Part shown: in pieces, positions 10,491 to 63,931 of the stretch | Layout: each line of letters starts with the position of its first letter | How positions within the stretch are numbered: position 1 is the stretch's first letter | Source: Tribonema minus | Taxonomy: Eukaryota > Sar > Xanthophyceae > Tribonematales > Tribonemataceae | Direction of reading: 5' to 3' | NCBI GenBank assembly: GCA_017506865.1 | Contig: JAFCMP010000016.1 | Coordinates: 1 to 64,000 of the forward strand | DNA: 64,000 bases | Position numbers and translations under genes: made by a program | The notes under the pieces: model-generated | The model's database searches: none | What the model was told of the DNA's origin: nothing | The model's input: the letters and a program-made list of their open reading frames with translations, nothing else

Positions 10491-10780
10491 AGGACGATGA
10501 CCTTGCCTTCTTCCTGCCGCTCATTAATTCATTGCCTTTCATTCATTTACTGCCATTCACTCATTCATTCATTCATTCATTGCTCAACTGCAGGACGACG
10601 ACCGCGGCCTGTTCCCGCCGCGCCTGCGCAGCAATCACTGCACATCACAGCAACAGCTTCACTTCACAGTGTCCACTCTACACGCCATTCGTCCTTGAAG
10701 TTTGGTTTTTGTGTCTTTTGTTGTTTTTCCCATCTCTTTCAGGACGACGATCGCGGCCTGTTCCCGCCGCGCCTGCAGCC
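10491..10780 (+). repeat. Three upstream echoes of the 5' edge of the bZIP-like exon at 10859
   Basis: The exon start (AG, then GACGACGACCGC, ending CCGCCGCGCCTGC) recurs near 10491 (diverged), 10593 and 10744, each preceded by TGCAGGA or TTTCAGGA like a real acceptor. The copies are separated by ATTC-rich microsatellite (10550-10582; also 10797-10850). Only the copy at 10859 runs on into the full exon. Confidence 0.9.
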
Positions 10781-10858
10781 ATTGCCATTCATTCAATCAA
10801 TTTTCATTCATTCATTCATTCATCGCCATTCATTCATTCATTCTTTCTTCACCTGCAG

Positions 10859-60500: not shown

Positions 60501-63500
60501 AGGCATCGTGTACTGCCGTCTGCAGCAGTGCTCAACGTATCTGGTAGCAGTGCTCAACGTCGAGCAAGTACATAAGCTGAGCGAGGTGGCAGCATCGCTG
60601 GCAGCCCTTGCAGTGTGCATCTGAGAATTGGCCTGCTTTCAGCTGCATCGTTTTGTTGACATTACCTCTGTGAATACACACAGGCAACACTGACTTCGCA
60701 GTGGCGCCTGTGCTTTGCTGCGTCATTGCTTGATCCTGCGGGGAACTGCATACTTTACAACACAACCTATCTAGGGTGCGATAGCTCTGCAAGGTGAATC
60801 CTGAAATGTGCTTCTGCGTCAACCACAGTGCCAGTGCCACAAAGCGACATCATGAAACCGTAAACACTCATCCTACCCATAGCCCTGACCCTAACAAACA
60901 ACAAATTGGGCCCTGGTGCATGATCGCTGCTCTGTGTGCACAGGGTACCTCTGGGACGGCCCTACCTGCTGCGAACAAGGTGAGCAATGCTTTGCGGAGC
61001 TGTCATTCAATTGAAGTCGACGCGCCAATGACATGAACTTCAAAACAGCGTGACCAGAGCATTCCTGCCATTTGCAGCCGCAAAGCGCATTGCACAAATG
61101 TTGTAGGATCCCGTGGCTGTTTACAGGCTAGGGTTTCTTGTGTCACAAGTGATGCACAGCAACTGTCAGTGGTCAGCCATTGCAAGTGCTGTTAAGAAAC
61201 TCGATGTGCGTGGCAGTAGCAACAGTTGTCATCCTTCACAGTGCAGCAGCTATCTTTGTTGCGCGCAAGCGTAGCCGAGGAGTGACGCTAACAACCATGA
61301 CGATATCGCCAGCTTAGGTGCACTCTCAGTACGTAACCCTAACCTTGACACTAACCTTCATCTGCACCAACACCTCTCTGACACTCATCCCCTTGCACCT
61401 CACTTCACATGAACTTCAACCTCCGCCCTCAGGGTCCGCCTGCCAGTATTTCAACAAGTACCTCTGGAAGTGCCGCCCCCTCTTCACCGTCCCCCCCACA
61501 GATGTCCCCGACCCCCGTACCGAAGAACCCACCACCCTTCCACCTACAACCCCGGAACCGACCACCACTCCCGAGCCCACGGTACCTGTTACAACTCCCG
61601 CAACAGAACCTGCAACAGAGCCTACGACTCAGCCTGTCGCCACGGAGCCGGTGGTTACGGAGCCGACAGTTACGGAGCAGACAGTTACGGAGCCGACAGT
61701 TACGGAGCCGACAGTTACGGAGCCGACGGTTACGGAGCCTGTAACGACGGACGGGCCGGTGGTGGAGCCGCAGCTGTGCGCGCGCCCGTTCGCGCAGTGC
61801 GGCGGTGAGTCATGTGTTGAGGTTGATAGTTTGAGGTCTGATGTTGGCGGTCTCTGATCAGTGATCACAGAGAGGGCAGTGAGTCGTTGCAGCTGTGCGC
61901 CGCGCGCCCGTTCGCACAGTGCGGTGGTGAGTCACACAGTTGCAGTTGGTGCTTGAACTGGCGCTGCAAGCAGTGACGCAGATGCTGATGCCGCACACTG
62001 TGGCAGGCCGCTGCACATCTGAAATCGATACTTGAGTGCTGCGCGCCCTAGGCATGGAGCTGTATTTATCAGGCCGTACATACCTACCCGCCCCCACTGC
62101 AGGCGCAAGGTGGGCCCGCCTGTGTTGCACAACCAACAAGAATTGATCTAAACAACAACACAATGCAGACAGCACAGGCTGCACTCATACCTTCATACTC
62201 TCATGTGCATCTGTACCTACGCCCATATATGTAGGCGTGAGGAGGGTCACCTCTACATACGCGCCGCACACGCGACAAGCATTGATATATGGACAATGTA
62301 TCATACTTACATACCCTCATGTGCATGTATACCTATCCCCCTCTGCAGGCGTGAGCTGGACTGACCTACTTTGAAGTATAAAACAAAACAATGTTCACAG
62401 GCTCTCATACTTACAGACCCTCATGTGCATGTATACCTACCCTATCTGCAGGCGCGAGGTGGGCCGGCCCCAAGTGCTGCACGCCTGGATCCACGTGCTT
62501 CTTTGACAACATGTGGTTCAGCCAGTGCCGCCCTACGCCTCAGGACCCCAACGGTCCTCAGTGCGCTCAGTGGTGGAAGCAGTGCGCAGGTACGTGAGAC
62601 TGAGCGCAAACTTCAATATTTACTTCAATAATAACAGCCAAGCGCCTCAGGGCCCCATGCCCCCCCGGTGCATGCAGTGGTGGAAGCAGTGCGCAGGTTC
62701 GCGAGACTTATTTTGGCGACTGAGTGATAGCCAGTGCAAGACATACCTACATACCTCTTTTCTGCAGGCACATACATGCCCTCGTTGCGACTACGCGCAC
62801 TACCCACCCTCTTTCGCAAGCGTACCTACATACCCTCATTGTGGCCACGCCGATTTCGCAGGCAAGCACTGCACATGGGGCTTAGCTGCTGTGCTAAGGG
62901 TCAGGTTGCAACACTTACCTACCTCTCTCTTGCTGTGTTTACGCTTTATTCACTTCTGCTTGAGGTGCGGAAACCCTATCAAGTATGCAAAATATGCAGC
63001 TCTACTTAGTGCTTATCTCAAGCGTGTTTGTACCTACCTTCTTGCTGTGTTTGGGTATACTTCTATATATATGCATACATACCCTCACTGCGTCCACATT
63101 GCGCATCTGCTGCTTTGCAGGCAAGCACTACACGGGGCCCAACTGCTGTGCCGAGGGATCCACCTGCAACGAGCGCAACGCATACTACAGGTCAGCAGCT
63201 CTCGATCGCTGCGCATGATGTAGTGTAGGGTGCATGTATATAACAGCTGGTACTCCATGTGGGATTTGCCAGAAGAGGCAAAGGGTTAGGGTTAGGATGA
63301 GGGTGAGGGTTAGTTTAAGCACGACCGCTCCTTCGCAGGACAGCACCCCCCTTCGGTCATGCACGCACAAGCAGTCACTCCCCGCGCAACACGCACCCCA
63401 TGTGACAATTACCTCAACTCACTCATCTCATAGAATGCATGACTTCAATTTGAACTTGACCTCTGTAGCCCCCTCCCCCCCCCCCCCTGCAGCCAGTGCG

Positions 63501-63931
63501 ACTCCATCGAGTACACCTCCCTCAGCTCCCCCCCTGCTGGCCGCGCCCCAATGCATGACTTCAACTTGAAGTTTGCACTAACTGTTTACCCCCCCCCCCC
63601 CCCTTCCCCCCCTATTGCAGCCAGTGCGACCCCATCGAGTACGCCTCCCTCACGCGCCCCCCCTGCTGGCCGCGCCCCCCCCACCGCCCCACCCGCGAAC
63701 CCACTGGCCCCTTCACCGTCCCCCCCACCGACCCCCCCACCGACCCTGAGGCGACGGTTCCCGCTGCCACGGAACCTGCTACGGAACCCGCTACAGAACC
63801 CGCCACTACGCAGCCTGTGACTGCTGAGCCGACAGCCGAGCCGACAGCCGAGCCCACAGCGGAGCCCGTGCCGACGATGCCGGTGACGACGTCCGACGGG
63901 GGGTGCCAACCGGAGGGGTTCCAGTGCGACG
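57590..63931 (+). CDS. Secreted multi-domain CBM1 (fungal-type cellulose-binding) protein, partial (runs off window)
   Basis: Seven exons are visible: 57590-57875, 59715-59915, 60944-60979, 61433-61804, 62452-62589, 63121-63190, 63621-63931 (phase 1 donor at 63932; continues). The N-terminus MVHRTTFVALLATVCLIERA is a signal peptide, followed by a poly-Ala run (GCA repeat). Five complete CBM1 modules follow (first YDQCGGTGFVGPTVCAAGFK), each with the QCGG, G-CC, C and (Y/F/W)SQC-type aromatic/Cys pattern; a sixth begins at CQPEGFQCDG. Linkers are Pro/Thr/Glu-rich with TVTEP and TAEP repeats, likely glycosylated. There is no catalytic domain so far, so it is probably a cell-wall or extracellular polysaccharide-binding protein. 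Introns split each module after the second Gly of QCGG in phase 1. ATG 57590 sits in a good context (CACACCATGG). Confidence 0.9.
59193..59575 (+). repeat. Three upstream echoes of CBM1 exon 2 5' edge
   Basis: GTG(T/C)GCAGGCAGGGGCTGGCT, GGGCACCAACTGCTAC recurs at about 59194-59232, 59365-59410 and 59533-59575, before the real acceptor at 59714. Units also repeat the CCCCCTTGACA.-type C-rich polypyrimidine and AGTAACATCAACT text, about 165-180 bp each. Confidence 0.95.
60028..60190 (+). repeat. Two downstream echoes of CBM1 exon 2 3' edge
   Basis: GGCTGCT(C/T)CCT.GCCAATGGCC, AGTGTGGAG/GTA-like copies lie at 60030-60066 and 60150-60190. They are embedded in repeats of GCTGTAATGTG, GGAGCATCC, TTCA.GTGGGATT.GGGT. 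Confidence 0.92.
61655..61750 (+). repeat. 15-bp minisatellite encoding (TVTEP)n linker
   Basis: ACAGTTACGGAGCCG repeats about six times in CBM1 exon 4 with rare variants (CAG for CCG, ACG for ACA). Confidence 0.95.
61886..61940 (+). repeat. Downstream echo of CBM1 exon 4 3' edge
   Basis: GCAGCTGTGCGC, GCGCGCCCGTTCGCACAGTG, CGGTG/GTGAGTCA repeats the exon end at 61770-61810 about 115 bp downstream, donor retained. Confidence 0.93.
62095..62375 (+). repeat. Two upstream echoes of CBM1 exon 5 5' edge
   Basis: CTGCAGGCGCAAGGTGGGCC at 62097-62130 and CTCTGCAGGCGTGAGCTGGAC at 62342-62370 copy the exon start at 62452. They share upstream text CCCTCATGTGCATGTATACC. An additional faint copy (TAGGCGTGAGGAGGG) lies near 62233. 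Confidence 0.88.
62637..62705 (+). repeat. Downstream echo of CBM1 exon 5 3' edge
   Basis: GCGCCTCAGGGCCCCATGCC, then TGCAGTGGTGGAAGCAGTGC, GCAG/GTTCGCGAGAC copies the exon end at 62540-62600 and its donor. Confidence 0.92.
62850..62910 (+). repeat. Upstream echo of CBM1 exon 6
   Basis: TTCGCAGGCAAGCACTGCAC, ATGGGGCTTAGCTGCTGTGC then AGGGTCAGG mirrors the whole short exon 6 (63121-63190) in shortened form. Confidence 0.8.
63470..63550 (+). repeat. Upstream echo of CBM1 exon 7 5' edge
   Basis: A C-run, CTGCAG/CCAGTGCGACTCCATCGA, GTACACCTCCCTCA and CCCCTGCTGGCCGCGCCCC repeat the exon start at 63621 about 127 bp upstream, with acceptor and polypyrimidine run retained, before switching to TGACTTCAACTTGAAGT-type intron text. 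Confidence 0.95.

Follow-up and report, generated by a model that had tools for sequence, protein, structure and literature searches.

The window analyzed here, positions 1 to 64000 of contig C16 in the Tribonema minus assembly (158.2 Mb in 554 contigs), carries four intron-bearing genes on its plus strand, and their introns hold degenerate tandem copies of the edges of the adjacent exons, which we call echoes. The spliced product of one gene, a tryptophanyl-tRNA synthetase (TrpRS, gene C), is identical across the full 369 amino acids to the deposited "tryptophanyl-tRNA synthetase [Tribonema minus]." The window is therefore nuclear DNA of this yellow-green alga (a stramenopile of the Xanthophyceae), and the identity implies the same splice sites as in our gene model. 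The deposited protein uses exon-joined splice sites only and contains no extra coding sequence. All four genes were modelled by hand; the 17 introns are without exception GT-AG, and the reading frames are intact. TrpRS is the only model matched to a deposited protein, and the models of genes A, B, and D are predicted. A first-pass annotation had labelled gene A bZIP-like, a label that the domain search of the modelled part does not bear out. Gene B is YeeE/YedE-like, and gene D is a CBM1 gene whose predicted protein gave 13 matches, none of them named Tribonema (7,999 candidates scored). All observations below come from this one assembly.

To count echoes, we compared up to 70 bp of exon at each edge with the intron adjoining it and accepted alignments scoring at least 28; the 99.9th percentile of scores against shuffled introns is 27, and shuffled introns reached the threshold in 11 of 4,480 trials (window and genome sets). 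Within the window, at least one echo is present at 21 of the 36 exon edges tested. Among internal edges the count is 19 of 34 (11 of 17 donors and 8 of 17 acceptors), with 45 echoes, and 41 of the 53 window copies with a score of at least 24 run exactly to the exon edge. The duplication of exon edges in adjacent introns is thus real. The first-pass estimate of about 24 edges and roughly 60 copies was slightly high but fair, as more degenerate copies fall below our threshold. Echoes occur in all four genes, in gene B at one of its two splice edges only. At the same threshold, window edges found no match in the opposite flanking intron (0 of 14), exon-internal 70-mers matched flanking introns once in 21 trials, and edges matched introns of other genes in 9 of 1,714 comparisons in the window and 30 of 2,776 in a genome sample. 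These near-empty controls indicate that the echoes are local and edge specific.

The genome sample was drawn from the Cpn60_TCP1 (CCT) and kinesin families, searched genome-wide with 30 loci each. Introns were modelled between contiguous domain matches, with repeats disregarded; 43 were solved and 39 kept (4 scored <8). Non-contiguous matches were skipped, by which some evident echoes were lost (e.g., on C51 and C246). In two introns (C5_2055 and C511_1100) an echo donor was first taken for the exon end, and these models were corrected; the genome-set cross-gene control, the intron-only clusters listed in Table 1, the frame-shift indel count, the intron-part similarity, the GC (guanine-plus-cytosine) content of exons and flanks, and the Fisher test on stop edges predate the correction. 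The sample has echoes at 21 of 78 edges (12 of 39 donors and 9 of 39 acceptors). Combining the 17 window introns with these 39 gives 56 introns and 112 edges; with matches more than 12 bp from the exon edge dropped, echoes are found in 32 introns and at 40 edges, distributed over several contigs. Introns with echoes are longer (median, 939 versus 519 bp), and echo number rises with intron length over the 56 introns (Spearman coefficient, 0.57; P = 3.6e-6). Echoes seem to lengthen introns.

The duplicated unit spans the splice site and is repeated in tandem, taking in about 45 bp of exon and some 100 bp of intron. The median exon part is 45 bp over 86 echoes (quartiles, 37 to 59); per edge it ranges from 18 to 112 bp, with a median of about 46 bp. 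Copies are spaced at a median of 143 bp (quartiles, 122 to 174; window and genome sets), in keeping with the 80 to 200 bp first estimated. Echoing edges have 1 to 7 echoes, which are 73 to 100% identical to the exon (median, 89%); 63 of the 86 reach the exon edge exactly, and all lie within 12 bp of it by selection. Whole-unit alignments exceed the period (433 bp at offset 171, 439 bp at 169, and 213 bp at 122), so the arrays run head to tail. The intron part is duplicated as well: at 30 of the 39 edges with enough length (of 40), the intron sequence behind the first echo is more similar to that behind the true edge than any of 50 shuffles is. The proposal that segments spanning the splice site were duplicated in tandem is thus supported, well beyond the window and in association with longer introns.

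The junctions might merely be where duplications remain visible. On this account duplications would arise everywhere, those in exons being removed by selection and those in introns fading, whereas splice-spanning copies would stay recognizable through the conserved exon copy. We masked all exon and echo-exon text, a test aimed at recognition bias from exon conservation, and searched the introns for remaining repeats. Of 37 repeat clusters in the 56 introns, the outermost copy lies no more than 25 bp from a splice site in 24, where uniform placement gives a mean of 3.8 and a maximum of 13 in 20,000 placements. The junction bias therefore does not stem from exon conservation. Just 6 of the 37 clusters lie neither near a splice site nor beside an echo; these few wholly intron-internal repeats, and one array that crosses the stop codon of gene B, are what survivorship would predict. 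Against it stand the masked clusters themselves, the derivation of echoes from the exon and hardly from each other (see below), and the avoidance of long exon parts, which exceed 80 bp at 1 of the 31 edges with room for at least 110 bp (uniform breakpoints would give 15.1). In the 13.3-kb stretch from gene B to gene C, moreover, there is one near repeat pair (23805-24142) besides those at the end of gene B (score 40, low-complexity filter on). Survivorship is therefore already disfavoured, and we regard it as an unlikely explanation, if the best of the alternatives.

The direction of copying can be read from states that echoes share with each other and not with the exon. Across 81 echo pairs, such states number 7, 3, and 84 at codon positions 1, 2, and 3, where independent hits would give 2.6, 1.9, and 16.5, and differences common to most echoes of an edge are synonymous in 26 cases and non-synonymous in 2. 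The shared states are mostly at third positions (84 of 94), so the exon went on changing at silent sites and the echoes keep older exon states. Copying among echoes would spread shared states alike over all three codon positions, and only 3 of the 81 pairs have two or more in common at the first two. Most echoes were thus copied from the exon-joined unit and not from another echo; the exon is the hub of each array. Growth in the manner of a minisatellite, in which slippage or unequal exchange would copy one echo from another, would suit the head-to-tail arrays of up to seven echoes per edge, and the 10 states shared at the first two codon positions (4.5 by chance) make some copying of this kind likely. 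As the general explanation, however, it conflicts with the third-position excess and the scarcity of pairs sharing other changes, and we consider it very improbable.

In 16 arrays the echo nearest the exon is more exon-like than the farthest, in 4 less so, with 1 tie (P = 0.011), the pattern that would result from new copies displacing older ones inward. A pair of paralogous LHC genes, on C79 (L077) and C1 (L078), gives a relative date, their matching stretches being about 90 to 93% alike. On C79 the acceptor region is single, with no self-repeat at score 40; on C1 there are three tandem units that close with CAG and the start of the exon. Bases distinguishing C1 from C79 are common to all three C1 copies, which places the origin of the copies after the divergence of the two genes. 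One silent site has the C79 base in both C1 echoes but not in the true C1 exon.

Once formed, echoes decay neutrally. Changes found in a single echo fall evenly on codon positions 1, 2, and 3 (61, 61, and 76) and comprise 71 synonymous and 127 non-synonymous ones; GT is kept in 40 of 49 echoes and AG in 17 of 20, against a neutral expectation of 0.79. Both the even spread and the neutral retention of splice dinucleotides indicate that the echoes are free of constraint. A local-alignment profile in which GT/AG conservation looked raised was discarded, as it is biased at alignment ends. The suggestion, raised in the first-pass annotation, that echoes serve as decoy or alternative splice sites under selection draws on the 57 of 69 tested echoes that keep GT or AG and so are in principle recognizable. 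Such retention is no more than neutral decay would leave, 18 of 70 echoes carry frame-shifting indels, and the deposited TrpRS uses none of the echo sites; a selected function is, in our view, even less probable than minisatellite-like growth. The least credible alternatives are a mobile or dispersed introner-like element, introners being a known intron source (PMC9860276), which the scarcity of matches between edges and other genes' introns (exon-edge text only) contradicts, and an assembly artefact, conceivable in that all arrays are known from a single assembly and opposed by the imperfect identity of echo to exon, by a codon-position signal that misassembly would not make, and by the occurrence of echoes on several contigs.

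We consider it probable that introns in this genome grow from their ends through recurrent short tandem duplications tied to the splice junction in use, that the exon-joined unit is the template, and that the copies then decay neutrally. Each event would copy the stretch straddling the splice site head to tail; splicing would go on at the sites contiguous with the exon body, and the new copy, now intron and hidden from the protein, would decay. The next event would reuse the exon-joined unit and push older copies deeper into the intron, with net intron growth over time. The trigger would most likely be replication slippage or break (end-joining) repair at the exon-intron junction, and exon definition may make the outermost sites win, given the short exons and long introns. 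A stronger version, to which we lean somewhat less than evenly, would have the live junction both initiate and template a recurrent duplication whose size is stereotyped (exon, about 45 bp; intron, about 100 bp). Both ends of an intron would then feed growth inward, as on a conveyor belt, each series of echoes would be an ordered fossil record of exon ends, and the process would have arisen independently in birds and in a stramenopile alga.

Several points weigh against junction-anchored growth. Echoes are not detectable in 24 of the 56 introns, all five CCT introns kept on C279:40916-47754 among them, or at 72 of the 112 edges. The intron part is not similar beyond shuffles at 9 of 39 edges, and outside the window exon limits are model based. 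The excess of shared states at codon positions 1 and 2 speaks for some copying among echoes, and gene conversion involving the adjacent true edge might also produce the gradient of similarity. The array of gene B at 21300-21767 spans a stop codon and not a splice site; the trigger may thus be the coding boundary rather than splicing, and duplication may extend beyond splice sites. Some 13 clear stop edges, few as they are, yielded this one clear array and one more weak match, and set against the 40 of 112 splice edges they give a Fisher P of 0.059, or 0.22 counting the weak match. Other stop edges were left out, as many LHC "stops" lie beyond an unspliced donor and a "stop" on C544 lies inside a match.

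The first-pass annotation knew of no described system with this regularity, a statement overtaken in February 2026 by the report of exon stuttering on chicken dot chromosomes (Hron et al. 2026, PMC12954441), which has the same anatomy. In chicken, the lateral part of an exon, together with its donor or acceptor, recurs in the adjacent intron as imperfect direct tandem copies, and the coding exon stays intact, as in Tribonema. Stuttering was reported in 236 introns from 115 genes, and 190 of these introns are on dot chromosomes; the copied exon part is 20 to 187 bp long (median, 36), more than 90% of copies lie within 1 base of the exon border, and arrays have 1 to 44 copies. Compared with these, the exon part in Tribonema has a similar range and a slightly larger median, and arrays stop at 7 echoes. 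The frequencies, 190 of 5,572 annotated dot-chromosome introns versus 32 of 56 introns, come from different screens and thresholds. The hosts differ as well, a bird in one case and a stramenopile alga in the other; according to that paper, stuttering is found in no other vertebrate except in GC-rich genes of the gerbil (data not shown there). The chicken authors suspect GC-rich DNA, secondary structures, or meiotic recombination, GC-rich dot chromosomes being the location and suspected cause and not a criterion of their screen. In Tribonema, by contrast, echoing edges have no exon GC excess (0.643 versus 0.639 at non-echoing edges; P = 0.54), and GC of the intron flank is slightly lower at echoing edges (0.492 versus 0.533; P = 0.008). 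Large differences in the length of affected introns between individuals are reported for chicken, and the nearest substitute here is the paralogue pair with one versus three units. Neutral decay, the exon as hub, and preserved older exon states come from Tribonema and do not figure in the compared sections of the chicken paper. A literature search with exon-stuttering terms found that paper only, and neither an algal report of echoes nor a Tribonema genome paper was among the matches listed. We conclude that this kind of phenomenon is already known, and that what is new is the stramenopile host, the high frequency, the absence of a GC link, and the evidence for a junction-anchored process with a master copy.

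Internal gene duplication and intron creation were reportedly also treated by Gao and Lynch in 2009. In internal gene duplication with AGGT intron creation (Rogers 1989 and Hellsten 2011, as cited in PMC4974935), as in the echoes, local tandem duplication within genes interacts with splicing; in those cases duplication of coding sequence yields a new intron, whereas the Tribonema copies are absorbed into an old one. The intron gain described for potato RdRp (Ma et al. 2016, PMC4974935) likewise involves tandem duplication across an intron-exon boundary, but as one event that gave rise to both a new intron and a new exon, in contrast to copies within existing introns that add no coding sequence to TrpRS. 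Introners, as described in PMC9860276, resemble echoes in changing introns on a large scale; they are dispersed into many genes, whereas echoes match their own exon and rarely other introns.

Exon stuttering, so far known from birds and from the remark on gerbil given without data (PMC12954441), is thus present at high frequency in a distant eukaryote, which speaks against an explanation specific to bird microchromosomes or to GC-rich DNA. How introns lengthen is an old question, and growth of the kind seen here leaves copies that can be read and put in order. As the echoes keep older silent exon states within one genome, they could allow changes to be dated and polarized without relatives. 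They also pose a puzzle for splicing, with up to seven nearby copies of the true site, most of them with GT or AG intact. Gene finders may be misled, as were our two intron models that took echo donors until corrected, and protein and domain searches matched echoes, several query stretches matching two to four times in a row.

Table 1. Modelled genes, exon-edge echoes, and associated tandem arrays in the window (positions on contig C16).
Gene	Feature	Position	Strand	Basis or remark
A	Partial model, 182 aa		+	No Pfam family in modelled part
B	YeeE/YedE-like gene, exons	19223-19482, 20580-21363	+	Sulf_transp/DUF6691
C	TrpRS, eight coding exons		+	Family by domain match
D	CBM1 gene, first exon	57590-57875	+	Five CBM_1 stretches
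A	First modelled exon	10859-11044	+	Hand model
A	Acceptor-edge echoes before exon 10859-11044	10594-10634 (38/41), 10743-10779 (35/37)	+	Both start at exon edge, CAG before
A	Four donor-edge echoes (region 11045..11446)	11136-11167, 11219-11254, 11321-11358, 11415-11446	+	Edge alignment
A	Degenerate 136-bp tandem array into acceptor of exon 15921-16046	15620..15920	+	TRF; no edge match above threshold; intron-only repeat cluster ending at splice site
A	Two donor-edge echoes after exon 15921-16046	16125-16180 (49/56), 16303-16358 (48/56)	+	GTGCGT follows both
A	Weak donor-edge echo after exon 17111-17182	17436..17459	+	Score 31
B	One acceptor-edge unit (20442..20579), echo	20442-20501	+	55/60; 92% over 64 bp, offset 138
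B	Tandem array across coding-sequence end (stop codon, no splice site)	21300..21767	+	Self-alignment
C	Acceptor-edge unit upstream of first coding exon (35582..35736), echo	35582-35647	+	52/66
C	Donor-edge echoes after exon 35738-35920 (region 35921..36308)	35996-36053, 36118-36177, 36279-36308	+	Edge alignment
C	Donor-side tandem array after exon 37542-37607	37608..37883	+	About 18 bp exon, below echo threshold
C	Acceptor-edge echoes before exon 38681-38938 (region 38081..38680)	38081-38142 (56/62), 38295-38363 (61/70), 38486-38545 (50/60)	+	CAG before each
C	Five donor-edge echoes after exon 38681-38938 (region 38939..39814)	39041-39109, 39204-39270, 39383-39452, 39522-39590, 39757-39814	+	Edge alignment
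C	Acceptor-edge echoes before exon 40268-40378 (region 39993..40267)	39993-40054, 40115-40164	+	Edge alignment
C	Acceptor-edge echoes before exon 42452-42575 (region 42044..42451)	42044-42077 (score 38), 42296-42333 (score 30)	+	Edge alignment
C	Donor-edge echoes after exon 42452-42575 (region 42576..42945)	42642-42700, 42781-42819, 42885-42945	+	Edge alignment; TRF period 125
C	Donor-edge echoes after exon 43336-43439 (region 43440..43853)	43525-43561 (35/37), 43658-43694 (37/37), 43824-43853 (27/30)	+	Edge alignment
C	Five donor-edge echoes after exon 44104-44222 (region 44223..44902)	44316-44375, 44481-44534, 44579-44638, 44721-44779, 44843-44902	+	Edge alignment
C	Acceptor-edge array before exon 45760-45904 (45174..45759), echoes	45222-45242, 45391-45411, 45561-45582 (scores 27, 32, 29)	+	TRF, edge and self-alignment
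D	Acceptor-edge echoes before exon 59715-59915 (region 59199..59714)	59199-59227, 59374-59404, 59538-59564	+	Edge alignment
D	Donor-edge echoes after exon 59715-59915 (region 59916..60185)	60034-60060, 60155-60185	+	Edge alignment
D	Donor-edge echo after exon 61433-61804 (region 61805..61924)	61889-61924	+	Edge alignment
D	Acceptor-side tandem array before exon 62452-62589	62173..62451	+	Self-alignment; intron-only cluster
D	Donor-edge echo after exon 62452-62589 (region 62590..62696)	62643-62696	+	Edge alignment
D	Acceptor-edge echo before exon 63121-63190 (region 62862..63120)	62862-62900	+	Edge alignment
D	Acceptor-edge echo before exon 63621-63931 (region 63493..63620)	63493-63549	+	54/58

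Apart from the tabulated echoes, TrpRS has a 57-bp tandem pair at 43205-43319 that contains no exon text and ends 16 bp before the acceptor of exon 43336-43439, perhaps an instance of stuttering without an exon part. Further probable donor-edge echoes, outside all counts, occur in the LHC genes L084, L092, and L093 (in L092, 67/69 and 52/56). The LHC paralogues L070, L071, and L072 have exons 91 to 95% identical and introns that share no sequence at score 40, a pattern that suggests very fast intron turnover.

Gene A contains two repeats of other kinds, an almost pure (TGC)n array about 3.9 kb long in intron 1 (11713-15630; 1,306 copies, 99% matches) and a 127-bp inverted repeat in intron 3 (17665-17791), 94% self-complementary. 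The modelled genes have minus-strand retroelement frames on both sides. The frame at 3345-8996 encodes a C5 cytosine DNA methylase domain and the start of a reverse transcriptase, and is followed at 1253-3244 by further reverse transcriptase, RNase H, and integrase zinc-binding domains. About 22 kb apart, 25065-25223 and 47388-47544 share 159 bp at 93% identity. The latter copy stands at the end of a minus-strand element bearing a reverse transcriptase (47470-56335), and 25065-25223 is therefore probably a truncated copy of that element.

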